From NCBI GenBank assembly GCA_035601835.1, contig DATNNM010000001.1:1-59686 (forward strand): a stretch of DNA of 59,686 bases. Direction: 5' to 3'. The notes under the pieces were generated by a model. It saw only the letters and a program-made list of their open reading frames with translations, had not been told where the DNA came from and ran no database searches. This document shows positions 37,505 through 50,280 of the stretch, in pieces. The position numbers were made by a program, and so were the translations under genes. Origin of the DNA: Candidatus Tumulicola sp. (GTDB lineage Bacteria; Vulcanimicrobiota; Vulcanimicrobiia; Eremiobacterales; Eremiobacteraceae). Every line of letters starts with the position of its first letter. Position 1 is the first letter of the stretch.

Positions 37505-38212
37505 ATGACCGACCAGCGGGCCGCGCCATCGGCCAAGATCCTCGTCGTCGACGACGAGGCGACGATACTCCAGACGCTGCGCTTCAATCTCGAAAAAAAC
37601 GGCTATGCTGTGTGCACCGCCGGTGACGGGCGGAAGGCGTTGAGCGTTGCTGAATTGGAGAAGCCGGACCTGATCGTCTTGGACATCATGCTGCCGGAGC
37701 TTGACGGCATCGAGGTCTGCCGCGAGATCCGCAAACGCTCGAGCGCGCCCGTGCTCATGCTCACCGCCAAAGATCAAGAGATCGACAAGGTGCTCGCGCT
37801 CGAGATCGGCGCGGACGACTACATCACCAAGCCGTTTTCGATCTACGAGCTGTTGGCGCGCATCAAGGCGCATCTGCGCCGGATGCAAGCGACGCAGCAG
37901 CCTTCGGAGACCGCAGTGCTGCGCGGCGGCGAGGTCGAGCTCGACGCCGGCCGTCACCGCGTGACCAAACGCGGGCAAGCGGTCGAACTCGCTCCCAAAG
38001 AGTTCCGCCTGCTTCAAGTGCTGCTCGAGAACAAGGGCCGCGTCGTGACCCGGCAAGCGATGCTCGATCGCGTCTGGGGATTTGATTTCTACGGTGATCT
38101 GCAGACCGTCAACGTGCACATCCGCTGGCTGCGCGAAAAAATAGAGGACGACCCGAGCTCCCCGAAGCACATCCAAACCGTGCGCAGTCGCGGTTATCTC
38201 TTCAGGGAGTAG
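37505..38212 (+). CDS. phoB: PhoB/PhoP-family response regulator
   Basis: The 235-residue OmpR-family regulator has a receiver domain with acidic pair DD at about 17-18, phospho-acceptor Asp about 60 in VLDIMLPELDG, and Lys in DYITKPF. It then has a winged-helix output domain with APKEFRLLQVLLENKGRVVTRQ and TVRSRGYLFRE at the end. Position directly before a histidine kinase, phoU and pstSCAB identifies it as the phosphate-starvation regulator. Two half-sites of the CTTAA type precede it, so it probably controls its own transcription. phoR begins 20 bases downstream. Confidence 0.93.
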   Translation: MTDQRAAPSAKILVVDDEATILQTLRFNLEKNGYAVCTAGDGRKALSVAELEKPDLIVLDIMLPELDGIEVCREIRKRSSAPVLMLTAKDQEIDKVLALEIGADDYITKPFSIYELLARIKAHLRRMQATQQPSETAVLRGGEVELDAGRHRVTKRGQAVELAPKEFRLLQVLLENKGRVVTRQAMLDRVWGFDFYGDLQTVNVHIRWLREKIEDDPSSPKHIQTVRSRGYLFRE

Positions 38213-38232
38213 GCGCCGCTCTTACCGAGATC

Positions 38233-39351
38233 ATGTCATTCCTCTTTGATCCGTTTCGCCGGAGCCGAGCCGAACAAACGGCTTCGCCGGTGAACCCTCC
38301 CGCCTCCGAAGCCGAGTTACTTGCGAACGCGCTCGCCGATCGCTTCGACGCGCTGGTGGAGGCGCTTCCGGTGGGCGTCATCGTGGTCGGCGCCAAGGGG
38401 CAAGTGCGGGTCTTCAATCAGGCTGCCGCTGAGATTTTCGGCGTCGCCCGCGAGCGCGCGCTCGCGCGCTCGCTCATCGAGAGCGTGCGCAGCTTCGAAC
38501 TCGATCGCCGTTTGACGGCAGCTTTGCGCGACGGGACGGAACAGACCGCGGAACTCGAGTACGTGGCAGGCGTGGAACGTCGGATGGAGGTGACGACGCG
38601 CCCGCTGCGCAGCCCGAACGGACCGCGCGAGGCGGTCGCGGTCATCACCGACATCACCCGTGTCCGCGAACTGGAAGCGATCCGCCGAGATTTCGTGTCC
38701 AATGTCTCGCACGAGCTGCGCACTCCGCTGACCTCGGTGAAGATCATCGTCGAAACGCTGCAGGCCGGGGTCAACGCGGGTGTGCAGAAGGAATTTCTCG
38801 CGAACATCGCGCGCGAGACGGATCGCATGATCGCGCTGGTCGAGGATCTGCTGCGACTCGCCAAAATAGAAAGCGGCGCGATCGAGCGGCCTTTCGAGGC
38901 GGTGGACTTGGCCGAGCTGTGCCGCGAAGTCGTCGACATGCAAGCGCCGCGAGCTCTTGCTCTCAACGTCGACCTGCGCCTGATCGCGCCGCCGAATCCC
39001 GTCATCGTTTCGGGCGACCGAGACAAACTCGTCCAAGTCGTCGTCAACCTGCTCGACAACGCGTTGCGCATCGTGCCCAGCGGCGGCAAGATCGAGGTGG
39101 CGATCCACGGCGAGCCTCAATACGCGGAGCTCACCGTCGAAGACAATGGGCCCGGTATCCCGTCCGCGGCCCTGCCGCACATCTTCGAGCGGTTCTACGT
39201 CGTCGAGCGCTCGCGCTCGCGCGTCTCCGCGGGCACGGGTCTCGGCCTTGCGATCGTGAAACACATCATGGAGCAACATGGGGGCTCCGTCACAGCGGAG
39301 AGCGAGCTCGGAGTCGGCACGACCTTCCGCTGCCGCTTCAGGAAATCTTAA
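38233..39351 (+). CDS. phoR: PhoR-like sensor histidine kinase lacking membrane segments
   Basis: The 372-residue kinase has a PAS domain (about 35-135, VEALPVGVIVVGAKGQVRVFN), the HisKA dimerisation domain with His about 160 in NVSHELRTPLTS, and an HATPase domain with NLLDNAL (N box), DNGPGIP (G1) and GTGLGLAIVKH (G2). Unlike E. coli PhoR, the N-terminal 30 residues are polar (FRRSRAEQTASPVNPP) and contain no membrane helix, so the protein appears soluble. It probably reads phosphate status through PhoU and PstB. ATG 38233 follows the regulator closely. Its stop codon overlaps a single CTTAA half-site. Confidence 0.92.
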   Translation: MSFLFDPFRRSRAEQTASPVNPPASEAELLANALADRFDALVEALPVGVIVVGAKGQVRVFNQAAAEIFGVARERALARSLIESVRSFELDRRLTAALRDGTEQTAELEYVAGVERRMEVTTRPLRSPNGPREAVAVITDITRVRELEAIRRDFVSNVSHELRTPLTSVKIIVETLQAGVNAGVQKEFLANIARETDRMIALVEDLLRLAKIESGAIERPFEAVDLAELCREVVDMQAPRALALNVDLRLIAPPNPVIVSGDRDKLVQVVVNLLDNALRIVPSGGKIEVAIHGEPQYAELTVEDNGPGIPSAALPHIFERFYVVERSRSRVSAGTGLGLAIVKHIMEQHGGSVTAESELGVGTTFRCRFRKS

Positions 39352-39378: not shown

Positions 39379-39407
39379 TTTACAAACGGGCCGCACAGGC
39401 CTATAAT
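39379..39407 (+). promoter_or_regulatory. Sigma-70-type promoter for phoU
   Basis: TTTACA (39379-39384) and TATAAT (39402-39407) are separated by 17 bases, an almost perfect housekeeping promoter. Transcription would start near 39414, leaving a leader of about 70 bases that includes a type B repeat before the TTG of phoU. A CTTAA half-site at 39347 and a looser CGTAA ten bases on lie upstream of the -35. They may add weak phosphate control. Confidence 0.7.
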
Positions 39408-39434
39408 TGTAGCGTTGTGAGCCAGCCTCGGAGT

Positions 39435-39460
39435 ATGTAGCGTTCCGAGCGGAGCTCGGA
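39435..39460 (+). repeat. Type B palindromic repeat in the phoU leader
   Basis: ATGTAGCGTTCCGAGC, then GGAGCTCGGA; the TCCGAGC and GCTCGGA arms pair. It lies 22 bases before the phoU start, inside the transcript predicted from the promoter at 39379, so it would form a hairpin in the 5' untranslated region. Confidence 0.85.
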
Positions 39461-39481
39461 AGAAGAGAGGTACCTTTTTCA

Positions 39482-40222
39482 TTGGGTCGCGAAAGTTTTC
39501 ATAGGATCCTCGATGAGACGCAGCAAGACGTGCTGCGTCTGGGCAGCCTCGTCGAAGAGGCCATCGCCCGAGCCGTCGATGCGTTGACGCGTTCCGACGT
39601 CAAGCTGGCCGAAGAGATCATAGAGGCCGATGACATCATCGACGACCTCAACGTCCGCATCGAGACGAATTGCCTGAATCTGCTGGCGCTGCAGCAGCCC
39701 ATGGCCTCCGATCTGCGCACGATCGCGGCCATGCTCGACATCATCATCGATCTCGAGCGCATCGGCGATCACGCCTGCGACATCGCCAGGATCACGAAGA
39801 ACCTTGCGAACGAGCCGCAACTCAAACCGTTCATCGACATCCCGCGCATGGCGAGCAAAGCGCGCGAGATGCTGCGCGAATCGCTTGACGCGTTCGCCAA
39901 TCATGACGCCAGCATCGCGCACAAAGTGCCTGAGAAAGATGACGAGGTCGACCGGCTCTACCGCAACGTCTTCAAAGAGCTGATCGGGTTCATGGCCAAG
40001 GATCCCAAGGCCATCAACGTCGGCAGCAATCTCATTTTGGTCGCCCTGTATCTCGAGCGCATCGCAGACCACGCGACCAACGTCTGTGAGCGCGTCGTAT
40101 ATATGGTCGAGGGGGTTCCGAAGAACCTCAAGCGCTCCGTGGTCGAGATCAACGAGGCGATCGCCCGCAGCGACGCCATCCTGCAGGCCGGCAAGGCCGA
40201 GAGCGAAACCGCCGCCTCGTAG
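39482..40222 (+). CDS. phoU: Phosphate-transport regulator PhoU
   Basis: The 246-residue all-helical protein has the two PhoU repeats, each a three-helix bundle with metal-binding motifs: ADDIIDDLNVRIE in the first and EKDDEVDRLYRNVF in the second. LDIIIDLERIGDHACDIARI and ALYLERIADHATNVCERVVY are the paired signature helices. PhoU links the Pst transporter to PhoR and restrains the regulon when phosphate is plentiful. TTG 39482 is used; GAGAGG lies about 12 bases upstream. A strong promoter lies upstream, and the pstS Pho box begins eight bases after the stop. Confidence 0.96.
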   Translation: MGRESFHRILDETQQDVLRLGSLVEEAIARAVDALTRSDVKLAEEIIEADDIIDDLNVRIETNCLNLLALQQPMASDLRTIAAMLDIIIDLERIGDHACDIARITKNLANEPQLKPFIDIPRMASKAREMLRESLDAFANHDASIAHKVPEKDDEVDRLYRNVFKELIGFMAKDPKAINVGSNLILVALYLERIADHATNVCERVVYMVEGVPKNLKRSVVEINEAIARSDAILQAGKAESETAAS

Positions 40223-40229
40223 AAATCTC

Positions 40230-40267
40230 CTTAACCCGTTCTTAAGGCCGTCTTAACGTTGGGGTAA
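40230..40267 (+). promoter_or_regulatory. Pho box array upstream of pstS
   Basis: CTTAA occurs at 40230, 40241 and 40252, exactly 11 bp apart, and a weaker GGTAA follows at 40263 in the same register. Four direct half-sites on one helical face suit tandem PhoB dimers. The array lies 68 bases before the pstS GTG; a loose TACGGT at 40279-40284 could serve as the -10 element with PhoB replacing the -35. Confidence 0.8.
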
Positions 40268-40334
40268 GCCCACTGCGCTACGGTTGATTCAGGTCGCCGC
40301 GTCGCCACGCCCATCCCACAAGAGGAGCCCACTA

Positions 40335-41369
40335 GTGAAGCGCAAGACTTTCACGCGAAGCCTGGCCGCCGTCGCGGCGGTCAGCGTTCTCGCCCCCGTC
40401 GCCGCGTTGGCCGACATGCAATTCGTCGGCGCGGGCGCGACGTTTCCGACCCCGTTTTTCTCACGCGCGTTCTATGCGTACAGCCAAGACCACCCCGGCA
40501 TCACGGTCAACTACGCGAGCATCGGCTCGGGCGGCGGCATCGCTCAGCTCACTGCCAAGCTCGTCGACTTCGGCGCTTCCGACGTTCCGATGAACGCGAA
40601 GGAACTCGCCGCCGCCTGGGACGCCAACGGCAAGGTCATCCAACTGCCGGATACGCTCGGTGGGGAACCCATCGCCTATAATGCCCCGGGCCTTCCAAAA
40701 CACATCAGGCTGACCGAAAAAACGCTCGCCGACATCTTCCTCGGTCACGTGGCGAACTGGAACGACCCGTCGATCGCCGCCGTCAATCCTGGGGTCAAGT
40801 TCCCGAACCTGGCGATCCTCGTCGTACATCGCGCCGATGCGAGCGGTACCAGCTACCACTTCACGGACTACATGGCGAAGATCAGCTCTGAATGGAAGAC
40901 GAAGGTCGGCGTGGGCAAGACGGTCAACTGGCCGACCGGCGTCGGCGCCAAAGGCAACGAAGGCGTGGCCGGGCAGATCCAGAACTCGCCGGGCGCTGTC
41001 GGATACATCGAACTCGCCTACGCGCTGCAAAACGACATGGCGTACGTAGCGCTGCAGAACAAAGACGGCGCCTACGTCCTGCCGACGGTCGACACCATCA
41101 GAGCCGCTGCCGCGCAAAAGCCTAACGTCAATGCGGTTGATTTCTCGGTCACCGACATGGCGGGCAAGGACAGCTACGGGATATCGGGCTACTCGTGGAT
41201 CATGGTCTGGCAGAACCAAGCGGACCCGGCGAAGGGGCGGCAGCTTCAAGATCTCTTGAAGTGGCTCGTCACCTCGGGTCAACAATATGCGAAGAAGGTC
41301 CACTACGTCGCCCTCCCCGATAACGTCCAGCAGGAAGCGCTCAAGGCGATCGCCAGCATCCACACCTAA
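40335..41369 (+). CDS. pstS: Phosphate ABC transporter, substrate-binding protein PstS
   Basis: The 344-residue periplasmic protein captures phosphate for the PstCAB permease. It has a signal peptide (KRKTFTRSLAAVAAVSVLAPVAALA) and mature GAGATFPTPFFSRAF, YASIGSGGGIAQL and, in the second lobe, HRADASGTSYHFTDYM, which carry the phosphate-binding Ser, Asp, Arg and Thr residues of the family. GTG 40335 has AGAGGAG at ideal spacing; the longer frame from 40284 overlaps the Pho box region. No lipobox is seen. It is the first gene of the pst operon and lies under the Pho array. Confidence 0.96.
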   Translation: MKRKTFTRSLAAVAAVSVLAPVAALADMQFVGAGATFPTPFFSRAFYAYSQDHPGITVNYASIGSGGGIAQLTAKLVDFGASDVPMNAKELAAAWDANGKVIQLPDTLGGEPIAYNAPGLPKHIRLTEKTLADIFLGHVANWNDPSIAAVNPGVKFPNLAILVVHRADASGTSYHFTDYMAKISSEWKTKVGVGKTVNWPTGVGAKGNEGVAGQIQNSPGAVGYIELAYALQNDMAYVALQNKDGAYVLPTVDTIRAAAAQKPNVNAVDFSVTDMAGKDSYGISGYSWIMVWQNQADPAKGRQLQDLLKWLVTSGQQYAKKVHYVALPDNVQQEALKAIASIHT

Positions 41370-41396
41370 GCGTGCGCGGGACGCACGACGTCGAAG

Positions 41397-41437
41397 AGGC
41401 GGTGTTGGCCCAGGCGACAAACCTGGGCCCACCGCCT
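41397..41437 (+). promoter_or_regulatory. Long hairpin between pstS and pstC
   Basis: AGGCGGTG, TT, GGCCCAGG, a seven-base CGACAAA loop, then CCTGGGCC and CACCGCCT form 16 perfect pairs interrupted only by a two-base bulge. A smaller hairpin (CGTGCG with CGCACG) precedes it at 41371. No T-run follows. In many binding-protein operons such a hairpin protects the upstream mRNA or limits read-through, allowing far more binding protein than permease; that role is inferred here. Confidence 0.7.
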
Positions 41438-41458
41438 TACCTGACTTCAGCGGGGAGC

Positions 41459-42439
41459 ATGTCACAAGAAACCGTTGAACTCGCGAGCGCGACCGCCTCG
41501 AAAGTTCAGCGCACGCCGCATGTGCGGTCGTCCCCGTTGGGCGACCGGATATTCTCGATTCTCTTGTATGCGGCGGCGTGGATCGTGCTCGCGGTCGTCG
41601 TCGCGCTTTTCCTCGTGCTCCTCAAAGCCGCGATTCCCGCGATCCAGGCCACCGGCATCAAGCCATTGCTCAGTCAGGTCTGGAGTCCCAACGACGGACA
41701 GTTCGGCGTCCTGTCGTTCGTGTACGGCACGCTCGTCACGTCGATCATCGCGCTGGTGGTCGCCGGGCCTATCGGGATCGGCGCAGCGCTCTTCTTAGCG
41801 GAACTGGCCCCGCGTCGCTTAGCGACCCCAGTGGCCATGCTCGTCGAGTTGCTCGCCGCGGTGCCCAGTGTCGTGTACGGCGTGTGGGGGCTCTTCGCGC
41901 TCGCGCCGTTCATGCGCGTTTACATCGAGCCCGCGCTCGCCAAGACGTTCGGGTTCTTGCCGCTGTTCCAGGGGCCGATCTACGGCGTCGGCATGTTGAC
42001 CGGCGGCATCATCTTGGCCATCATGGTCGTTCCCACCGTCGCCGCGATCTCGCGTGACGTCTTCGAGGCAGTGCCCAACGAACAGCGCGAAGGCATGCTC
42101 GCGCTCGGCGCGACCAAGTGGGAGATGCTCACAAAGGCGGTGCTGCCATACGCGCGCTCCGGCGTCCTCGGCGCACTCGTGCTCGGCGTGGGACGCGCGC
42201 TCGGCGAAGCGATGGCCGTGGTCATGGTCATCGGCAACAAGCCCGCAATCGCGGCGTCGCTCTTCGCGCCCGGTTACACGATGGCAAGCGTGCTCGCCAA
42301 CGAATTCTCAGAAGCGACCGGCAAAGTCTACATCTCGATGCTGATCGAGATCGGACTGTTGCTCTTCGTCGTCAGCCTGATCGTCAACGTCGTCGCGCGG
42401 CTTTTGGTGTGGAGCGTCAGCCGGCGTGTGGGACGCTAG
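41459..42439 (+). CDS. pstC: Phosphate ABC transporter permease PstC
   Basis: The 326-residue inner-membrane permease has six to seven membrane segments. The coupling loop REGMLALGATKWEMLTKAVLP contacts PstB. GVGRALGEAMAV keeps the Arg and Glu known from E. coli PstC studies to matter for phosphate transport. FAPGYTMASVLANEF is another family block. ATG 41459 with GGGGAG is chosen; the frame extends to GTG 41372, but that would run through the intergenic hairpin. The pstA start follows after four bases. Confidence 0.95.
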   Translation: MSQETVELASATASKVQRTPHVRSSPLGDRIFSILLYAAAWIVLAVVVALFLVLLKAAIPAIQATGIKPLLSQVWSPNDGQFGVLSFVYGTLVTSIIALVVAGPIGIGAALFLAELAPRRLATPVAMLVELLAAVPSVVYGVWGLFALAPFMRVYIEPALAKTFGFLPLFQGPIYGVGMLTGGIILAIMVVPTVAAISRDVFEAVPNEQREGMLALGATKWEMLTKAVLPYARSGVLGALVLGVGRALGEAMAVVMVIGNKPAIAASLFAPGYTMASVLANEFSEATGKVYISMLIEIGLLLFVVSLIVNVVARLLVWSVSRRVGR

Positions 42440-42443
42440 CGCG

Positions 42444-43289
42444 ATGCTGAAATCGCTGCTCGTCCGCCGTTTCTGGAGCGCTTTCATGTCGGTCGTCGCG
42501 GCGTTGTGCGCCGGCCTTGCTGCCACCGTGCTCGCGCTCATCGTCGTGTTCGTCGTCACACGCGGAGCGAAGGCGCTCAATTGGGCGTTCTTCACGAAGT
42601 TGCCGATGCCGGTCGGCATGGAGGGCGGGGGCGTCGCCAACGCGATCGTGGGCAGCGGCGAGATCATCCTAATGGCGTCCCTGGCAGCGGTGCCCATCGG
42701 CGTGATCGCCGGCATCTACCTCGCGTTGTTCGGCCGGGGGCGCTTGGCCGCGTCGGTGCGCTTCTTCAGCGACGTGTTGACGGGCATGCCTTCCATCGCC
42801 ATCGGCGTGTTCGCGTATGCGCTGGTGGTGCTGCCCATCGGGAAATTCTCGGCGCTGTCCGCATCGGTCGCGTTGGCGGTGATCATGCTGCCGATCGTCG
42901 TGCGTACGACCGAGGAGGCCGTGCGCCTCGTCCCTTCGACGATCCGCGAAGGCGCGCTGGCTTTGGGATTGCCGGCTTGGAAAGCGACCATGATCGTCAC
43001 CGTGCCGAGCGCGCGCCCCGGCATCGTCACCGGCACCCTGCTCGCAGTCGCCCGCGTCGCGGGAGAGTCGGCGCCGCTGCTGTTCACGGCGTTCGGCAGC
43101 CAGTTCTGGGCCAAAACCGTGTTCGGGCCGACCGCCGCGCTGCCGCTGCTCATCTTCAACTACGCGATTTCACCCTACCCCGACTGGCAGCAGATCGCGT
43201 GGGGTTGCGCCTTCGTCCTCGTCGTGCTGGTGTTCGCGCTGAATCTCATCGCACGGCTTGCATTCTCGTCGCAGATCCACGCCCGCTAA
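42444..43289 (+). CDS. pstA: Phosphate ABC transporter permease PstA
   Basis: The 281-residue permease has six membrane segments and pairs with PstC. The coupling loop is IREGALALGLPAWKATMIVTVP, and ARVAGESAPLLFTAFGS retains the family Arg that is essential in E. coli PstA. FNYAISPYPDWQQIAWG closes the conserved C-terminal part. ATG 42444 is preferred over GTG 42426, which would overlap pstC. pstB begins 21 bases downstream. Confidence 0.95.
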   Translation: MLKSLLVRRFWSAFMSVVAALCAGLAATVLALIVVFVVTRGAKALNWAFFTKLPMPVGMEGGGVANAIVGSGEIILMASLAAVPIGVIAGIYLALFGRGRLAASVRFFSDVLTGMPSIAIGVFAYALVVLPIGKFSALSASVALAVIMLPIVVRTTEEAVRLVPSTIREGALALGLPAWKATMIVTVPSARPGIVTGTLLAVARVAGESAPLLFTAFGSQFWAKTVFGPTAALPLLIFNYAISPYPDWQQIAWGCAFVLVVLVFALNLIARLAFSSQIHAR

Positions 43290-43310
43290 GAAGTAAGGCA
43301 GGAACGCTCC

Positions 43311-44090
43311 GTGGCCACAACCGCAATCCAAACGAAATCCTTGAACGCCTACTACGGCCCGCATCTGGCGGTACGCGACGTCAATGTGGAGTTCCAGACG
43401 GGCGCCATCACCGCGCTCATCGGGCCGTCCGGTTGCGGCAAGACGACGCTGCTACGGTGCCTGAACCGCATGCACGAAGTCATCCCGAACGCGCGGGTCG
43501 AGGGCGAGGTGCTGCTCGACAACCAGAATCTCTATAGTCCGGGCGTCGACCCGACCGATACGCGCCGCCGTGTCGGCATGGTGTTCCAGCGAGCGAATCC
43601 GTTCCCGACGATGTCCATCTACGACAACGTGATAGCCGGCGTGAAACTGACCGGCAAGGTCCGCGGTCAAGCGGCGTTGCGGGAAGTGGCCGAGACCAGC
43701 TTGCAACGGGCGGCGCTATGGGACGAAGTGAAAGATAAACTGCAAGAGTCCGGATTGTCGCTATCCGGCGGTCAGCAGCAGCGTTTGTGCATCGCTCGCG
43801 CGCTCGCGGTCGAGCCGGAGGTGCTGCTCATGGACGAGCCGGCGTCTGCGCTGGATCCGATATCGACCACGAAGATCGAAGAGCTGATGCGCGAGCTCAA
43901 AGGCGCCTACACGATCATCATCGTCACCCATAACATGCAGCAAGCGGCGCGCGTGTCCGATTTCACCGGCTTCATGCTGGCCGGCGAGTCTGCGACCGGC
44001 GAACTCATCGAATTTGACGTCACGTCGAAGATGTTCACCACGCCGACAGACAAGCGTACGGAAGACTATATCACCGGCCGCTTCGGATAG
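43311..44090 (+). CDS. pstB: Phosphate ABC transporter ATPase PstB
   Basis: The 259-residue ATPase powers phosphate import. All catalytic motifs are intact: Walker [10 protein letters not shown]-loop [11 protein letters not shown] with its PstB-specific NPFP, signature [18 protein letters not shown], Walker [14 protein letters not shown] with catalytic Glu, and switch His in [13 protein letters not shown]. This makes it a useful reference for the degenerate copy at 45786. GTG 43311 puts the domain in normal register. A type B repeat follows 24 bases after the stop. Confidence 0.97.
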
Positions 44091-44114
44091 TTTAGGTCGC
44101 TCAGAAACTACGGA

Positions 44115-44148
44115 ATGTAGTGTTCCGAGCGAGCGAAGCGAGCTCGGA
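44115..44148 (+). repeat. Type B palindromic repeat (extended)
   Basis: ATGTAGTGTTCCGAGCGAGC followed by GAAGCGAGCTCGGA; CGAGC repeats pair with the GCTCG arm. This is the same long form as at 18878 but in the other orientation. It separates the canonical pstSCAB genes from the Pst-like paralog operon. Confidence 0.82.
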
Positions 44149-44194
44149 GAAGCCCCCGTAAGGAAATCCTAGGCACCTCGGCCAAGGCAAGCGC

Positions 44195-44986
44195 GTGGGT
44201 TTCTTCGAGCGCGCGTTTGTGTGGTTCGCACGATTGTGCGCATCGCTGGTGATCTGCATTCCCTGGCTGCTTGGCGCCGTGCTTGGCGCTGCGACGCTTG
44301 TCGCCATGGCGGGTTATTCGGCGCCCGAACGGTACACAGCGCTAGTACCTCTCGCGATCGCCACGATCGGCATCGGGCTCATCGCCACACTGATCGGCGC
44401 AACCGCGGGAACGGGCCTCGCCCTGCTGGCTCACGCGGTCGCGTCAGCGGGTACGCGCCGTCTGCTGCTCGTGATCGTCGGAATTCTTTCATCAACGCCG
44501 GCGATCGCAGTCGGTGTGGCCATGGTGGGGCTGCTCGCGTACTGGCACGGGGTCGCCGGAGCCGGACCGTTCGTTCCGGTGACGCTGGCGGTCGCGATCC
44601 TTGCGACGCCGCTCGCGAGCCGGCACGCGCTGCGGGAACTGGCGAAGTTACCGCCCGATCTGCGCCAAGCGGCCGCGGCAACCGGTGCTGATCCGGTGAG
44701 AATCGCCTTTAGCGCGATTTTTCCGGCGGCCCGACGCGGCATCGCGGCCGCATTCCTCGCGGCGTTCGCCGCCGCCATCGGCGAAGCAACAGCAGCGCAA
44801 GTCATCTTCGCCAACGTGCCTGACCCCAACGGCTCGGCCGGCCCCGCGACGCTCGCCGCTGTCGTGCTCGCCGGCGGCGCGGATGGGGTGGAGGCCGTAG
44901 CGCTCGCACCTGCGTGCCTGGTGCTCCTCGTCCTTGGGTTGATTCCGGTGATATTGAGCCGGGGCGTTGAGCGGAGCGCGTCGTGA
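44195..44986 (+). CDS. Degenerate PstC-like ABC permease
   Basis: The 263-residue protein has about six membrane segments and aligns by pattern with PstC from the second helix on. The coupling loop (LPPDLRQAAAATGADPVRIAFSAIFP) and the following AAAIGEATAAQVIF are recognisable. In the latter, the Arg of the PstC RALGE motif is Ala, while the Glu is kept. A PstC-type periplasmic region is much shorter (326 versus 263 residues). GTG 44195 is the likely start. The stop overlaps the next gene (GTGA). No substrate-binding protein gene precedes or follows. Transport of phosphate is doubtful; a regulatory role or another anion is possible. Confidence 0.75.
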   Translation: MGFFERAFVWFARLCASLVICIPWLLGAVLGAATLVAMAGYSAPERYTALVPLAIATIGIGLIATLIGATAGTGLALLAHAVASAGTRRLLLVIVGILSSTPAIAVGVAMVGLLAYWHGVAGAGPFVPVTLAVAILATPLASRHALRELAKLPPDLRQAAAATGADPVRIAFSAIFPAARRGIAAAFLAAFAAAIGEATAAQVIFANVPDPNGSAGPATLAAVVLAGGADGVEAVALAPACLVLLVLGLIPVILSRGVERSAS

Positions 44987-45789
44987 GCGCGAAAATGCCG
45001 CTCGCGGCTTTGTGGTCCTGCGCCGGGTTTTGCGTGGCGGCGCTGGCGCTCGTGGCCGCGGGCTTAGGCATCAACGGTTGGAATGACTTCCTTTGGGTGC
45101 TGCAGGCACCGGCCCCGGTGGGGATCTGGCTTGCGCTTGAAGCGTCGGCCGTCGTCTTGGCTATCGCACTGCCGGCGGTCGCGCTCCTGGGCTTCGCGGC
45201 CGCCGGCGCCGCGATCGATGCGAAGATCGGCGGATTCCTGGCCAAGTTCACGGAACCGGCGGCAGATTCGCGGATCGCCACGGCTTCGGTGGTGGTGGGC
45301 ACCGTCATCCTAATCGTGGTGGTCTCCGCCGGCTACCGGCCAGACATCCTCTCGGCGTCGCTCGCGCTGATCGTCGTCAATCTTCCGGCCATCACCGGCC
45401 GATTCGCGCGCGCCCTTCGCGCGGTATCGGTCGTCCGTCTCCAAGCCGCCGCCGCCACGGGCGCCGGTCCGGTCCACATCTTCTTTTTCGTGCTCGCGAG
45501 GGCAGCAGCCAAAGGCCTGGTCGCGGCGGTGCTCACCACGGCCGCCCAGATGCTCGGTGAAACCGCAGCGCTGGCCGTCGCTTCGCGCGCGGCGCTTGGA
45601 GGCTCGCATTTGAAAGCCAGCACGCTTGGGGCTTGGCCTCTCGCCGTCGATCTTTGGACGCGTGCGTCAGCTCACGCCGACTTGAGCGCTGTGTCAGCGG
45701 CGACGCTGATCCTCACCCTCATTATCTTGTTGTTGCGAAGCGTCGCGCATGCTCTGACCCCGCGCGCCGCGAATCCGAAACCAACATGA
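44983..45789 (+). CDS. Degenerate PstA-like ABC permease
   Basis: The 268-residue protein has six predicted membrane segments. The coupling loop SVVRLQAAAATGAGPVHIFFFVLAR and the next helix QMLGETAALAVASRA correspond to the PstA pattern, but the conserved Arg of ARVAGES is Gln and the SAPLLF stretch is changed. The frame also bears a 40-residue, less hydrophobic loop. GTG 44983 overlaps the first permease and the stop overlaps the ATPase start (ATGA), so the three are translated together. Identity as the PstA partner is inferred from order and motif position. Confidence 0.73.
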   Translation: MSAKMPLAALWSCAGFCVAALALVAAGLGINGWNDFLWVLQAPAPVGIWLALEASAVVLAIALPAVALLGFAAAGAAIDAKIGGFLAKFTEPAADSRIATASVVVGTVILIVVVSAGYRPDILSASLALIVVNLPAITGRFARALRAVSVVRLQAAAATGAGPVHIFFFVLARAAAKGLVAAVLTTAAQMLGETAALAVASRAALGGSHLKASTLGAWPLAVDLWTRASAHADLSAVSAATLILTLIILLLRSVAHALTPRAANPKPT

Positions 45790-46568
45790 AGGCGACGCTC
45801 GCCTGGACGGGCCCGAAAGTCGAACTGAGCGACGTGAGCGTGCGCTACGCTGAAGCCGTAGCCTTGAACAAAGCCTCTTTGAAAGTTCCGCACCGCACGA
45901 CCATCGCCCTGATCGGAGCGAGCGGCTGCGGCAAGACGACGCTGCTGCGGGCGATCAACCGCCTGCACGATCTCGACGAATCGGTTCGCATCAACGGCAG
46001 TGTGAAACTCGATGGGGTTGAGATGTTGGCGTCGGGCGTCGACGTGTATGCGTTGCGCCGTCGTGTCGGTATGATCTTCCCCCGCCCCACCGTCATGCCC
46101 GGCACGGTCGCTGACAACGCGGTGTTCGGCATGCGCGCGCAAGGCATTCGCGACCGACGGGAGCTCGAGGACGGCTGCGAGCGCGCGCTGCGCCGCACGC
46201 TCTTGTGGGAATATACTATCGCCAGCGGCTCGATGCTCAAGCCGGCGGACTCGCTGCCCATCGACCTCCAGCAGCGCTTGTGCATCGCGCGGGCGCTTGC
46301 GGTTGATCCCGAAGTGCTGTTGTTCGACGACCCGACTTTCGAATTAGACCCCATTGCGGCCGGTGGCATCGAAGACATCATCGCGCGCCTGCGGCGCGAT
46401 TGCACGGTGCTCTTGGCGACCAACGATCTGCAGCAAGCAGCGAGGCTCTCCGATGTCACGTGCTACATGGCGGGGGGCGAGATCATCGAGGCGGGGGACA
46501 CGCCGGTCCTTTTCAGCAGGCCCGCGAACGCGCGGACGGAAGACTTCCTCGCCGGTCGCGCATCGTAG
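45786..46568 (+). CDS. Degenerate PstB-like ABC ATPase
   Basis: The 260-residue protein is clearly related to PstB over its full length ([42 protein letters not shown]). Walker A GASGCGKT (44-51) is intact. Four other catalytic elements are altered: Q-loop Gln is Pro99 (IFPRPTVMPG), LSGGQ is LPIDL (157-161), the catalytic Glu after Walker B Asp181 is Asp182, and the switch His is Asn213 (LATNDLQQ). It may bind ATP but should hydrolyse it poorly. Such sites occur in one half of heterodimeric ABC proteins and in regulatory ABC proteins. The frame is undamaged, so this is not decay by frameshift. Confidence 0.85.
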   Translation: MKATLAWTGPKVELSDVSVRYAEAVALNKASLKVPHRTTIALIGASGCGKTTLLRAINRLHDLDESVRINGSVKLDGVEMLASGVDVYALRRRVGMIFPRPTVMPGTVADNAVFGMRAQGIRDRRELEDGCERALRRTLLWEYTIASGSMLKPADSLPIDLQQRLCIARALAVDPEVLLFDDPTFELDPIAAGGIEDIIARLRRDCTVLLATNDLQQAARLSDVTCYMAGGEIIEAGDTPVLFSRPANARTEDFLAGRAS

Positions 46569-46592
46569 TAGTGCCGAGGCTCATACCCCCGG
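46569..46592 (+). repeat. Degenerate type A repeat before the cbs gene
   Basis: TAGTGCCGAGGCTCATACCC and CCGGA follow the outline of type A but the stem is interrupted, with GAGGC opposite ACCCC. It begins at the base after the ATPase stop and ends eight bases before the ATG, so its last bases join the GGAAAAGGA ribosome-binding site. Confidence 0.6.
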
Positions 46593-46600
46593 AAAAGGAC

Positions 46601-48013
46601 ATGCCATTGAAGACCACGCTCGACGCCTCGACCATCCTCGGGCCGCTGCAGCCCGATGGCATGCATTACTACGATTCAGCGCTCGACGTCGTCGGGAACA
46701 CCCCGCTCGTGCGCCTCAAGCGCGTGATGGATGGCGCGAAGTGCACGGTGCTGGCCAAAATCGAGTTGGTGAATCCGGGCGGCTCGGTCAAAGATCGGCC
46801 CTCGCTCACGATGGTCGCCGATGCTGAAGAGCGCGGCTTGCTGCGCCCCGGCGGCACGATCGTCGAAGCGACCTCCGGCAACACCGGCACCGGGCTTGCC
46901 ATGGTGGCCGCCATCAAGGGCTACCGCTGCATCTTGGTCATGCCGGACAAAGTGAGTGAGGAAAAAATCAGACTGCTGCGCGCGTACGGCGCGGAGGTGG
47001 TGATCACGCCGACCAAAGTGCCCGCCAGCAGTCCGGAGTCGTATTACGGCGTCGCGGCCAAGCTGGCAAGTGAGATACCCGGCGCGTTTCAACCCAATCA
47101 ATTCGCGAACATGCTCAACCCGATGGCGCACGAGCGGACGACCGGTCCGGAGATCTGGCAGCAGACCGCGGGCAAGCTGACGCATTTCGTGAGCGGCATC
47201 GGCACCGGCGGGACCATCTCAGGAGTGGCGCACTACCTCAAGAAGCAAAACCCGCGCGTGCTGGTGGTGGGCGCTGACCCCGAAGGCTCTATTTATTCGG
47301 GCGACACGGCGAAATCGTATAAGGTCGAGGGCATCGGAGAAGACTTCTTGCCCGCGACCGTAGATCTGAAATCGATCGATCGCATCGAGCGGGTTTCCGA
47401 CAAAGAGTCGTTCCTTATGGCGCGGCGCATCTGCCGCGAAGAGGGTTTGCTGGTGGGCGGCTCCTCGGGAACCGCGGTGGTCGCCGCCGTGCGCGTCGCG
47501 CGCGAATTGCCGGCCGACGCGATCATGGTGGTGCTGCTTCCGGACAACGGTCGCGGGTATCTCTCGAAGATCTTCAACGACGAATGGATGCGCGCCAACG
47601 GTTTTCTCGGAGAGCACGGGCGCGCTGCGCGGGTGAGCGACGTGCTGGCCGCCAAGGGCGAGCTGCCCCCGATGATCACGCTATCACCCGAGGATCCGGT
47701 CAAGCGCGGCATCGAACTGATGCGGGAATTCCAGATCTCGCAGATCCCAATCGTCAATGCCGCCGGCGACATGGTCGGCAGCATCAACGAGGTCTCGGTC
47801 ATGCAGCTGATCTACGACCGCGCCGACGTCGCGCACGCCGCGGTCAAAGACGTCATGGCGCGTCCGTTTCCGGTGCTCGACGAGCTCGATGAGGTCGAAC
47901 GCGCTTTCAAGGAGCTTTCGCTCGGCCACGCGGCTGTGGTCGTCGCGCGCAAGGGGCACCCCATCGGCGTGCTCACCAAGATGGACATCATCTCGTACCT
48001 CTCGGCGAATTAG
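46601..48013 (+). CDS. Cystathionine beta-synthase with CBS domains
   Basis: The 470-residue PLP enzyme condenses homocysteine with serine (or another activated serine) to cystathionine. The PLP lysine is Lys64 in GGSVKDRPS, the phosphate loop is TSGNTGTG, and GIGTGGTISG is also seen. Residues about 345-470 form two CBS domains (VKRGIELMREFQISQIPIVN and VVVARKGHPIGVLTKMDI), as in eukaryotic CBS and some bacterial homologs; they may sense adenosyl compounds. ATG 46601 follows GGAAAAGGA. The next gene supplies the lyase, giving a complete reverse transsulfuration pair. Confidence 0.92.
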   Translation: MPLKTTLDASTILGPLQPDGMHYYDSALDVVGNTPLVRLKRVMDGAKCTVLAKIELVNPGGSVKDRPSLTMVADAEERGLLRPGGTIVEATSGNTGTGLAMVAAIKGYRCILVMPDKVSEEKIRLLRAYGAEVVITPTKVPASSPESYYGVAAKLASEIPGAFQPNQFANMLNPMAHERTTGPEIWQQTAGKLTHFVSGIGTGGTISGVAHYLKKQNPRVLVVGADPEGSIYSGDTAKSYKVEGIGEDFLPATVDLKSIDRIERVSDKESFLMARRICREEGLLVGGSSGTAVVAAVRVARELPADAIMVVLLPDNGRGYLSKIFNDEWMRANGFLGEHGRAARVSDVLAAKGELPPMITLSPEDPVKRGIELMREFQISQIPIVNAAGDMVGSINEVSVMQLIYDRADVAHAAVKDVMARPFPVLDELDEVERAFKELSLGHAAVVVARKGHPIGVLTKMDIISYLSAN

Positions 48014-48021
48014 AGGATCGC

Positions 48022-49182
48022 ATGGACTTTGCTACGCGGGCCATACATGTCGGGCAAGAATCCGATCCGACGACCGGCGCGACCATCGTGCCGATCTACC
48101 AGACGTCGACCTACACGCAATCCGCGCCGGGCGTCCACAAAGGCTTTGATTACTCCAGGACCGTGAATCCGACGCGCGTCGCGCTCGAGCGCTGCTTGGC
48201 GTCGCTCGAGAACGCGCAGTTCGGGCTGTGTTTCGCAAGCGGCATGGCCGCCACGGCGGCGGTGATGAACATCCTTTCGCAAGGCGATCACGTGATCGTC
48301 AGCGATGACTTGTACGGCGGCACGTTCCGGCTTTTCGACAAGGTGCTCGCGCGTTATGGTCTGACGTTCACCTATGTCGACGCGACCGACGTGCGCAACG
48401 TCGAGTCGGCGATGCGCGCTTCGACGCGCATGGTCTGGCTCGAAACGCCGACCAACCCGCTGCTGCGTCTGGCCGATATCGGCGCCATCGCGGCCGGCTG
48501 CCGCAAGCACGGCGTGCTGCTGGCGGTGGACAACACGTTCGCGACGCCGTATCTGCAGACGCCGCTGGATCTCGGGGCTGATCTCGTGGTCCATTCGACG
48601 ACCAAATATATCGGCGGCCATTCGGACGCAGTGGGGGGTTTCGTCGCCTCCAACAAAAAGGAGCTGCACGACATCGTCAAGTTCCATCAGAACGCGGTCG
48701 GCGGCGTGCCTGGCCCGTTCGATTGCTTCTTGGTGCTGCGCGGCGTCAAGACGCTCGAGATCCGCATGCGCGAGCACGAACGCAACGCGCGGGCGGTGGT
48801 GGCGTACTTGGACGGCCATGCCGACGTCGCGCGCGTGTATTATCCCGGTTTGCCGGCACATCCGCAGCACGAGCTCGCGCAGCGCCAGATGCGTGGTTTC
48901 GGGGGCATGGTGTCCGCCGTGCTCAAAGGCGGACCGGAACGGGCGCGCGCGTTCGCATCGCAGACGAAGCTCTTCGCGCTCGCCGAGAGCCTGGGCGGCG
49001 TCGAGTCGCTAGTCTGTCACCCCGCGTCGATGACGCATGGTTCGATTCCGAAGGAAGTGCGCGAAGCGCGCGGCGTGACCGAAGGGCTGTTGCGCTTCTC
49101 CGTTGGGATCGAGTCGGCGACCGATCTCGTCGCCGACATCGAGCATGCGCTCGCCGCGACCCGCTCCCTCGCCCCCGTCTAA
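48022..49182 (+). CDS. Cystathionine gamma-lyase / gamma-synthase
   Basis: The 386-residue PLP enzyme belongs to the Cys/Met metabolism family. The PLP lysine is about Lys195 in VHSTTKYIGGHSD, and the family blocks YSRTVNPTR, LCFASGMAAT and LETPTNPLLRL are present. After a CBS gene, gamma-lyase activity (cystathionine to cysteine, 2-oxobutyrate and ammonia) is the more likely role, but gamma-synthase cannot be excluded from sequence alone. It starts eight bases after the cbs stop, so the two are surely one operon. Confidence 0.93.
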   Translation: MDFATRAIHVGQESDPTTGATIVPIYQTSTYTQSAPGVHKGFDYSRTVNPTRVALERCLASLENAQFGLCFASGMAATAAVMNILSQGDHVIVSDDLYGGTFRLFDKVLARYGLTFTYVDATDVRNVESAMRASTRMVWLETPTNPLLRLADIGAIAAGCRKHGVLLAVDNTFATPYLQTPLDLGADLVVHSTTKYIGGHSDAVGGFVASNKKELHDIVKFHQNAVGGVPGPFDCFLVLRGVKTLEIRMREHERNARAVVAYLDGHADVARVYYPGLPAHPQHELAQRQMRGFGGMVSAVLKGGPERARAFASQTKLFALAESLGGVESLVCHPASMTHGSIPKEVREARGVTEGLLRFSVGIESATDLVADIEHALAATRSLAPV

Positions 49183-49194
49183 AACGCGCCCTGA

Positions 49195-49220
49195 TGTAGT
49201 GCCGGGGCTTTAGCCCCGGA
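49195..49220 (+). repeat. Type A palindromic repeat
   Basis: This is an intact type A copy (TGTAGTGCCGGGGC, TTTA, GCCCCGGA) twelve bases after the transsulfuration operon and twenty before the ATG of the propeller gene. The downstream gene has its own GAAAGGA ribosome-binding site. Confidence 0.85.
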
Positions 49221-49239
49221 AACCGTCGAAAGGATCGCA

Positions 49240-50280
49240 ATGCTACGAGGACTTGCCTTCACGCTCGCATGCGTTTGCCTGCTCGCCATTTCTGCCGTTG
49301 CCGCTCCCACCGCGCAATATGAATTGAAGCACACCTACGCCTTGGGCGGCGAGGGCGGTTGGGACTATCTGACCTTTGACCCCGTCGGCAAGCGGATGTT
49401 CATCCCGCGCTCGACTCGGGTCGACGTGGTCGACCCATACAAGGGCACGGTCATCGGGTCAATACCGAATACGCCCGGCGTGCATGGCGTAGCCCTGGCG
49501 CCGGAGTTCAACAAGGGTTTCACGAGCAACGGCCGCGAGAACACGGTGACGGTGTTCGACACGAGAACGCTCGCAGAAACCGGGCGCATCAAGATCGACG
49601 GTACCAACCCGACTCCTGATGCGATCGTCTACGATCCAGCTTCCAAGCGCGTCTTCAGCTTCAACGGCCGCGCCAATAGCGCGACGGTGATCGATGCGGC
49701 GACATCGACCGTGGTGGCCACCATCCCCTTGGACGGCAGGCCGGAGTTCGCCGCGCCGGACGGCAAGGGGATGCTCTTCGTCAACATCGAGGACAAGGGG
49801 GAACTGAGCGTCATCGACGCTCGCACAGCGACGGTGAAGAACACCTGGCTGCTGCCTGCGTGCAAGTCGCCTACGGGTCTTGGCATGGATCAGAAAAGCC
49901 GCAGGCTGTTCTCCGCGTGCGCCGACAGCAAGAACATGATGATCGTCGACGCCGACAGCGGCAATGTAATAGCGACGGTGCCGATCGGCGACTTCTGCGA
50001 CGCGGTGGCGTTCGACCCGGTCACGCGGCTGGTGTTCGCACCGGCTTTCGACGGCACGCTCACCATCATCCGCGAGGATACGGCGGACAAGTTCGACGTC
50101 GTGCAGACCACGAAGACGCAAGACTCCGCGCGCACGATGGCGCTCGACACGATCGACCACGACATATATCTAGCCGCGGCGAAATACGTCCCCGCGACGC
50201 CGGCTCCGGGCGACACGCAACCGCGCCGGAGCATGGTGCCGGGCTCGTTCGTGCTGCTGGTGATGTCGGCCCGGCCGTAA
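49240..50280 (+). CDS. Secreted YncE-like beta-propeller protein
   Basis: The 346-residue protein has a Sec signal (LRGLAFTLACVCLLAISAVAA) and about seven blades of the pattern VIDxxTxxVxxxI, e.g. TVTVFDTRTLAETGRIKIDG, ATVIDAATSTVVATIPLDG and MMIVDADSGNVIATVPIG. This is the YncE/surface-antigen type of beta-propeller found in periplasmic or exported proteins of many phyla. Binding partner and activity are unknown; the family includes DNA-binding and ligand-binding examples. ATG 49240 follows a type A repeat and an AAGGA site. Confidence 0.87.
   Translation: MLRGLAFTLACVCLLAISAVAAPTAQYELKHTYALGGEGGWDYLTFDPVGKRMFIPRSTRVDVVDPYKGTVIGSIPNTPGVHGVALAPEFNKGFTSNGRENTVTVFDTRTLAETGRIKIDGTNPTPDAIVYDPASKRVFSFNGRANSATVIDAATSTVVATIPLDGRPEFAAPDGKGMLFVNIEDKGELSVIDARTATVKNTWLLPACKSPTGLGMDQKSRRLFSACADSKNMMIVDADSGNVIATVPIGDFCDAVAFDPVTRLVFAPAFDGTLTIIREDTADKFDVVQTTKTQDSARTMALDTIDHDIYLAAAKYVPATPAPGDTQPRRSMVPGSFVLLVMSARP

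Follow-up and report, generated by a model that had tools for sequence, protein, structure and literature searches.

A Pst-like complex whose ATPase subunit is disarmed, as judged from its motifs, occurs in all 14 genomes analysed of the bacterial family Eremiobacteraceae, and this is a real finding that reaches beyond the loss of arginines from its permeases. The complex is encoded by three genes, pstC2, pstA2 and pstB2 (hereafter the triplet), described here from a stretch of 59,686 nucleotides of Candidatus Tumulicola sp. (GenBank assembly GCA_035601835.1, contig DATNNM010000001.1, positions 1 to 59,686), which we call the window; the genome to which it belongs is designated G000, and other genomes of the family and the phylum are likewise numbered. 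The hallmark of the triplet is the disarming of PstB2 and not the arginine loss. We hypothesize that the triplet forms a pseudo-transporter that does not hydrolyse ATP and probably serves the Pho pathway as a receptor for phosphate or a platform for repression, signalling having been split from transport; we hold this reading with slightly less than even confidence. No report of a disarmed PstB or Pst paralog appears among the literature matches listed.

In the window, the whole series phoB-phoR-phoU-pstSCAB-pstC2A2B2, followed by a cystathionine beta-synthase (CBS) type gene and a Cys/Met PLP gene, lies on the + strand (Table 1), and overlaps of 4 bases join pstC2 to pstA2 and pstA2 to pstB2. 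All three products of the triplet fall below the curated cut-offs of the corresponding models: PstC2 scores 42.4 bits against TIGR02138 (PstC; cut-off 196.45), PstA2 46.7 bits against TIGR00974 (PstA; 193.45) and PstB2 251.6 bits against TIGR00972 (PstB; 343.2), while PstA2 matches no Pfam family at an E value of 0.001. The triplet has no substrate-binding protein of its own in the window genome, where TIGR00975 finds a single match.

Table 1. Positions of the Pho, Pst and adjoining features in the window (contig DATNNM010000001.1).
Feature	Position	Strand	Remarks
PhoB-like response regulator and PhoR-like PAS/histidine kinase	37505..39351	+	PhoB-like regulator named by sequence
PhoU	39482..40222	+	
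Pho-box-like element	40230..40256	+	3 CTTAA units at 11-base pitch, upstream of pstS
PstS	40284..41369	+	Sole TIGR00975 match of the genome
PstC, canonical	41372..42439	+	Arg present
PstA, canonical	42426..43289	+	Arg present
PstB, canonical	43311..44090	+	ATPase motifs intact
PstC2, PstC-like permease	44195..44986	+	263 aa; Ala at Arg237-equivalent, next Glu kept
PstA2, PstA-like permease	44983..45789	+	268 aa; Gln at Arg220-equivalent
PstB2, PstB-like ATPase subunit	45786..46568	+	Walker A and PstB-type tail RTEDFLAGR kept
Cystathionine beta-synthase type enzyme (PALP and CBS domains)	46601..48013	+	32 bases past PstB2
Cys/Met metabolism PLP enzyme (cystathionine gamma-lyase/synthase type)	48022..49182	+	

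The initial annotation had mentioned ATPase changes in the paralogous set, and these proved to be common to the whole family. PstB2 of the window, with a Walker A of GASGCGKT and a C-terminal tail of RTEDFLAGR, has lost the Q-loop Gln and the LSGGQ signature, and carries Asp in place of the catalytic Glu and Asn in place of the H-loop His. Across the 14 family genomes the Q-loop Gln is retained in none (Pro in 4, Ala in 4, Thr in 2, Gly in 2, Ser in 1 and Asn in 1), both signature glycines are gone in all (the second being Asp or Glu in 13), the catalytic Glu is kept in three and is Asp in the other 11, and the H-loop His survives once (Asn in 12, Gly in 1). The Walker B Asp is kept in all 14 and the Walker A Lys in 12, with Arg in G025 and G026. 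Canonical PstB of the same family has all of these sites intact (12/12), and in other families of the phylum all 24 aligned PstB, as well as all 20 of a second set that partly overlaps the first, retain the Glu and the His along with the Q-loop Gln and the signature glycines. Canonical PstB has 144 invariant columns that at least 10 PstB2 also fill; at the 7 catalytic ones the canonical residue is retained in 11% of PstB2 cells and at the other 137 in 55% (one-sided rank test, columns treated as independent, p 0.007). A common core is preserved nevertheless, as 34 columns (start Met counted) are identical between canonical PstB and PstB2 in every sequence; the tail keeps R-T-E and G-R around a new F-L-A, each invariant in 14/14, and the Gln matching E. 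coli PstB Q160 (by our own count the third Gln of LSGGQQQ) is also kept in every PstB2.

By motifs alone, PstB2 is predicted not to hydrolyse ATP, and every composite ATP site formed with it would be faulty. The arrangement of a heterodimer with one degenerate site was considered and appears unlikely, as by motifs no site containing PstB2 would be intact. One alternative is that the triplet acts as a brake, PstB2 (or PstC2/PstA2) joining the canonical Pst complex and lowering phosphate import in a dominant-negative manner. In a dimer of PstB with PstB2 both sites would be faulty, since PstB2 contributes neither signature nor catalytic residues. The columns shared with every canonical PstB and the single copy of PstS in the window genome would suit such mixing of subunits; however, PstC2 and PstA2 have been kept together with PstB2 in all 14 genomes, with gene ends mostly close or overlapping. 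This points to a pairing of PstB2 with the permeases of its own triplet and makes a brake unlikely.

Attention had initially been drawn to the permeases, both of which were said to have lost a conserved Arg, and the loss and its register were borne out in the window. Where the canonical proteins read GRALGEA (PstC) and ARVAGES (PstA), the paralogs read AAAIGEA (PstC2) and AAQMLGET (PstA2), with Ala and Gln replacing the Arg equivalent to E. coli PstC R237 (an equivalence counted in the alignment) and PstA R220. Three kinds of alignment concur in this register: MAFFT, profile-profile alignment (PstC2 against PstC, probability 99.4, E 1.3e-21; PstA2 against PstA, probability 96.7, E 4.2e-10) and family profiles against the E. 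coli chains of PDB 9k3s (PstC, E 1.6e-20; PstA, E 1.4e-12). Neither PstC2 nor PstA2 has an Arg or Lys within seven residues on either side of the lost Arg, a statement that concerns the same helix only, since the AlphaFold models (pLDDT 47.6 for PstA2 and 48.9 for PstC2) were too poor for use.

Across the family, the loss of Arg is far from uniform. PstC2 has Arg in 10 of 14 genomes (Leu in 3, Ala in 1), and PstA2 has Arg in 5 (Gln in 8 and Gly in 1). Four genomes, namely that of the window and three of genus g5 (G020, G021 and G022), have neither Arg, and five have the two together (G017, G018, G019, G025 and G026). Arg loss was accordingly rejected as the defining trait of the triplet, and the absence of Arg from all orthologs, which the initial annotation would have taken as support for a specialised function, was not found. 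The Glu that follows the Arg position is retained in 14/14 PstC2 and 8/14 PstA2. Among the canonical proteins of the family, Arg is present in 12/12 PstC and 12/12 PstA (counts to which G021, whose canonical pst locus was not found, and G027, whose PstA is cut by a contig end and whose PstC has the Arg, do not belong), and among aligned proteins of other families of the phylum in 14/14 PstC and 14/15 PstA. As these controls nearly all have Arg, its absence from PstC2 and PstA2 is not due to chance. In the family tree (midpoint-rooted, with G021 and G027 filling less than a quarter of the columns), one change suffices for each Arg loss, and the loss in PstC2 is nested in the set whose PstA2 lacks Arg; the parallel loss first described amounts to two separate changes in the four genomes that have neither residue.

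The one exception among the other families, PstA of G076, lacks the Arg in a locus that has a motif-intact PstB, and for this reason Arg loss alone is no proof of lost transport and is weak evidence. Of the Arg loss and the ATPase changes that the initial annotation cited against phosphate import, it is the disarmed PstB2 of all 14 genomes that speaks against import driven by ATP. The initial interpretation is partly supported. An importer that still works, on an unusual motor, or permeases powered by canonical PstB, would be compatible with the kept Walker A Lys and Walker B Asp and with the five genomes that have both Args, two of which (G025 and G026) encode a PstS2 directly upstream; yet these same two genomes have the Walker A Lys replaced by Arg, the signature glycines and Q-loop Gln are lost in all 14, and retention of PstB2 would hardly be expected were canonical PstB doing the work, so that we consider such an importer very unlikely. 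The ATPase changes are probably older than the Arg losses, because they are common to all 14 genomes while the Arg losses are not, and younger Arg losses are what one would expect once constraint on the phosphate path had been lifted.

PstB2 is found in all 14 family genomes, representing 9 genera, at 51-62% identity to PstB2 of the window, and in each of them PstC2 and PstA2 ORFs lie upstream of it, open and in the same order (with starts of PstC2 and PstA2 picked by script, and a stretch of N at the start of PstB2 in G027). When 149 genomes of the phylum were searched with a profile, the 14 of this family scored 384-447 bits and the next match 326 bits, with motifs read in part of the lower-scoring matches; in a contig collection that may omit the family, a PstB2 scan returned 7 distant relatives of the ABC type, all in other phyla. 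Evolution of PstC2 and PstA2 is fast, those of the other 13 genomes being 24-35% identical to the window proteins, as might be expected of a duplicate decaying into a pseudogene. Against such decay stand the open ORFs in constant order, the new residues fixed in PstB2, and the low dN/dS (NG86) of the closest pairs, G025/G026 and G017/G018, at 0.035-0.105 for the genes of the triplet and 0.033-0.084 for canonical genes; values for distant pairs are higher, with synonymous sites near saturation (up to 0.89 for PstA2 of G000 against G022). The triplet is under purifying selection in the close pairs, and pseudogene decay, for which we see hardly any likelihood, is rejected at the family level by the ORFs and these ratios.

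PstC2, PstA2 and PstB2 are each monophyletic (SH-aLRT 100). In the PstC tree, PstC2 is sister to the divergent PstC of G092 and G118 (SH-aLRT 89), genomes whose loci have a motif-intact PstB and permeases with Arg; this kinship is not seen in the PstA and PstB trees, and the trees have many long branches and some unsure joins. We infer that the ancestor of the triplet was probably a Pst system whose motifs were intact. The loci of G118 and G092 (L131 and L127, respectively), which belong to another family of the phylum, also represent a divergent type of Pst operon adjoining phoB-phoR, composed of pstS, pstC, a weakly matching pstA and a motif-intact pstB, with no phoU match within the 10-11 kb read.

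The surroundings of the triplet vary on one side and are constant on the other. The distance from pstB to pstC2 ranges from 104 bases in the window to 5698 (10 genomes measured), and the genes in between (identified by Pfam on one representative per kind and by eye for the rest) include PstS2 in three of the 14 genomes (G016, G025 and G026), a TonB receptor with a phosphoesterase-family protein in G020 and G022, a similar phosphoesterase alone in G017 and G018, and an SLH protein in G024; in G016 an incomplete ORF without a Pfam match lies between PstS2 and PstC2, and in G015 opposite-strand ORFs precede the triplet. On the downstream side, the CBS-type gene adjoins PstB2 in 14/14 genomes with a gap of -13 to +32 bases (its start extrapolated from tblastn), and the cystathionine gamma-lyase/synthase type (CGL) gene is present in all 13 loci that extend that far. 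The steadiest neighbour of the triplet is thus the cystathionine beta-synthase gene, not the pst operon, and its unvarying association with genes for sulfur amino acids is what weighs most against a role in the Pho pathway alone.

The same association could be taken to mean that the triplet serves cysteine metabolism or transsulfuration, in an operon with cystathionine beta-synthase and gamma-lyase/synthase, by handling or sensing a sulfur compound or other oxyanion. A weak likeness of PstC2 to molybdate permease models agrees with this, but its best profile matches are PstC/PstA models and its sister is a divergent PstC of the phylum; moreover, in four genomes gene runs headed by a Pho-box-like element end in the triplet, and import of any solute is left unexplained by a disarmed ATPase. 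We therefore regard a sulfur-related function as improbable. In a more elaborate version of the phosphate-receptor hypothesis, evolution has turned a whole ABC importer into a dedicated receptor for phosphate, its ATPase disarmed and an R220Q-like change fixed in the majority of members; it would be retained alongside the working pump for signalling or repression, and transcribed together with cysteine-synthesis genes so that phosphate and sulfur state are read jointly. We put this version forward tentatively, as plausible though on balance doubtful.

Possible Pho control is suggested by a repeat, found by a general repeat scan, of three CTTAA units at 11-base pitch, which precedes pstS in 11 of the 12 genomes whose pstS locus was covered, with a weaker copy in G023, and which we take to resemble the cyanobacterial Pho box. 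On the + strand of 16 loci the pattern has 25 matches (some overlapping), against 0-2 in six mononucleotide shuffles; in the window genome, four matches with up to two mismatches all fall on the site at 40230-40256 (itself, or shifted or reverse readings of it), and a reversed control pattern matches once in the whole genome. No Pho box of the E. coli type or the TTCACC type was matched in the 16 loci. The Pho-box-like element heads a same-strand gene run ending in the triplet in four of the 14 genomes (G016, G020, G022 and G024), and the remaining loci have no such site between pstB and the triplet. In the window, read-through from pstB into the triplet is predicted to be plausible, because the genes have the same direction and the sole terminator-like site in the interval is on the minus strand; this site comes from a sigma-70 and terminator scan of 39400-49300 whose matches were no commoner than in shuffles. 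The spacer between pstB and pstC2 shows no unusual fold (z -0.85). It contains a short element, CCGAGCGAGCGAAGCGAGC, at 44125-44143, which was rejected as a specific regulator since the genome holds 16 copies (9 exact, 7 with one mismatch).

Two further observations concern the phosphate genes of these genomes. The PhoR-like kinase of the window (38233-39351) has no clear transmembrane helix, and the PhoR of the window genome, G020 and G022, members of the clade with double Arg loss, lacks the hydrophobic N-terminal helix that is present in G015-G019, G023 and G024 (G025, G026 and G021 lie outside this comparison). The low-affinity transporter Pit (PF01384) has no match in the window genome (98% complete), G021 (72%) or G027 (92%). 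Another low-affinity route for phosphate would be useful to such a genome, and the triplet, whose permeases are retained, could have become an ATP-independent phosphate facilitator or gated channel, a pump conversion like that of CFTR; however, a Pit match co-occurs with the triplet in 11 of the 14 family genomes, and the Arg losses in the window genome do not favour a phosphate path, leaving a facilitator quite improbable.

For the favoured reading of the triplet as a phosphate receptor or repressor platform, we propose the following mechanism, of which the steps beyond the absence of hydrolysis, including the signalling role, go further than the motifs themselves. PstB2 lacks the residues to close on and hydrolyse ATP, while its conserved core and PstB-type tail stay. 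Unable to form an ATP sandwich, it should leave the complex resting open and inward-facing in the membrane. PstC2A2B2 may bind PstS-phosphate without importing phosphate (PstS2 is encoded alongside in three genomes), and, through PhoU/PhoR, would serve in phosphate reception or repression. The simplest prediction from an inward resting state is that there is no transport and that the sufficiency signal is favoured if PhoU/PhoR is contacted. In E. coli, according to PMC5775613 (citing Cox 1988/1989), replacement by Gln of PstA Arg220 or of PstC Arg237 and Glu240 blocks transport while signalling persists, which agrees with the initial statement that these Arg residues are needed for transport and not for all regulation; by the same source, sufficiency is the signal from a PstB variant whose predicted locked state is inward, and starvation the signal from one whose predicted locked state is outward. 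Of the 14 PstA2, 8 carry Gln at the R220 position, the same residue as in the E. coli mutant R220Q. How Pst reports plentiful phosphate to PhoU/PhoR, and whether transport is required for this, is a long-standing question addressed with a few E. coli mutants; if the proposal is true, a conserved natural non-hydrolysing Pst paralog with an Arg-to-Gln change would show signalling uncoupled from transport by evolution, and would lend itself readily to testing.

Several known systems share features with the triplet. Heterodimeric ABC transporters of the TM287/288 type have one degenerate nucleotide site and one intact, and SUR1 is a regulatory ABC protein; the triplet resembles them in having a degenerate site in an ABC protein and, possibly, in using such a protein as a regulator, but differs from the TM287/288 type in that, by motifs, every composite site formed by PstB2 would be faulty and none intact. 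The E. coli PstSCAB importer (PDB 9k3s, 9k3x) has a homologous permease pair and ATPase, adjoining pho genes, a PstB-type tail and the same register around R237 and R220; unlike it, the window triplet is without the ATPase motifs and without Arg in both permeases, has no second PstS in its genome, and scores far below the equivalog cut-offs for PstA, PstB and PstC. Enterococcus faecalis carries tandem pstB1-pstB2, its pst locus thus encoding an extra PstB that serves a distinct role, and according to PMC12096839 both proteins keep the four ATPase motifs; here, by contrast, there is an entire triplet with a disarmed ATPase. With the E. coli separation-of-function mutants PstA R220Q, PstC R237Q, PstB Q160K and PstB E179Q (PMC5775613), the triplet shares a natural Gln at the R220 position, a predicted loss of transport and possible signalling. 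The parallel with Q160K is inexact because the equivalent Gln is kept in PstB2, and, unlike any of these mutants, the triplet is an evolved paralog that stands beside an intact Pst system, with several catalytic residues changed together.
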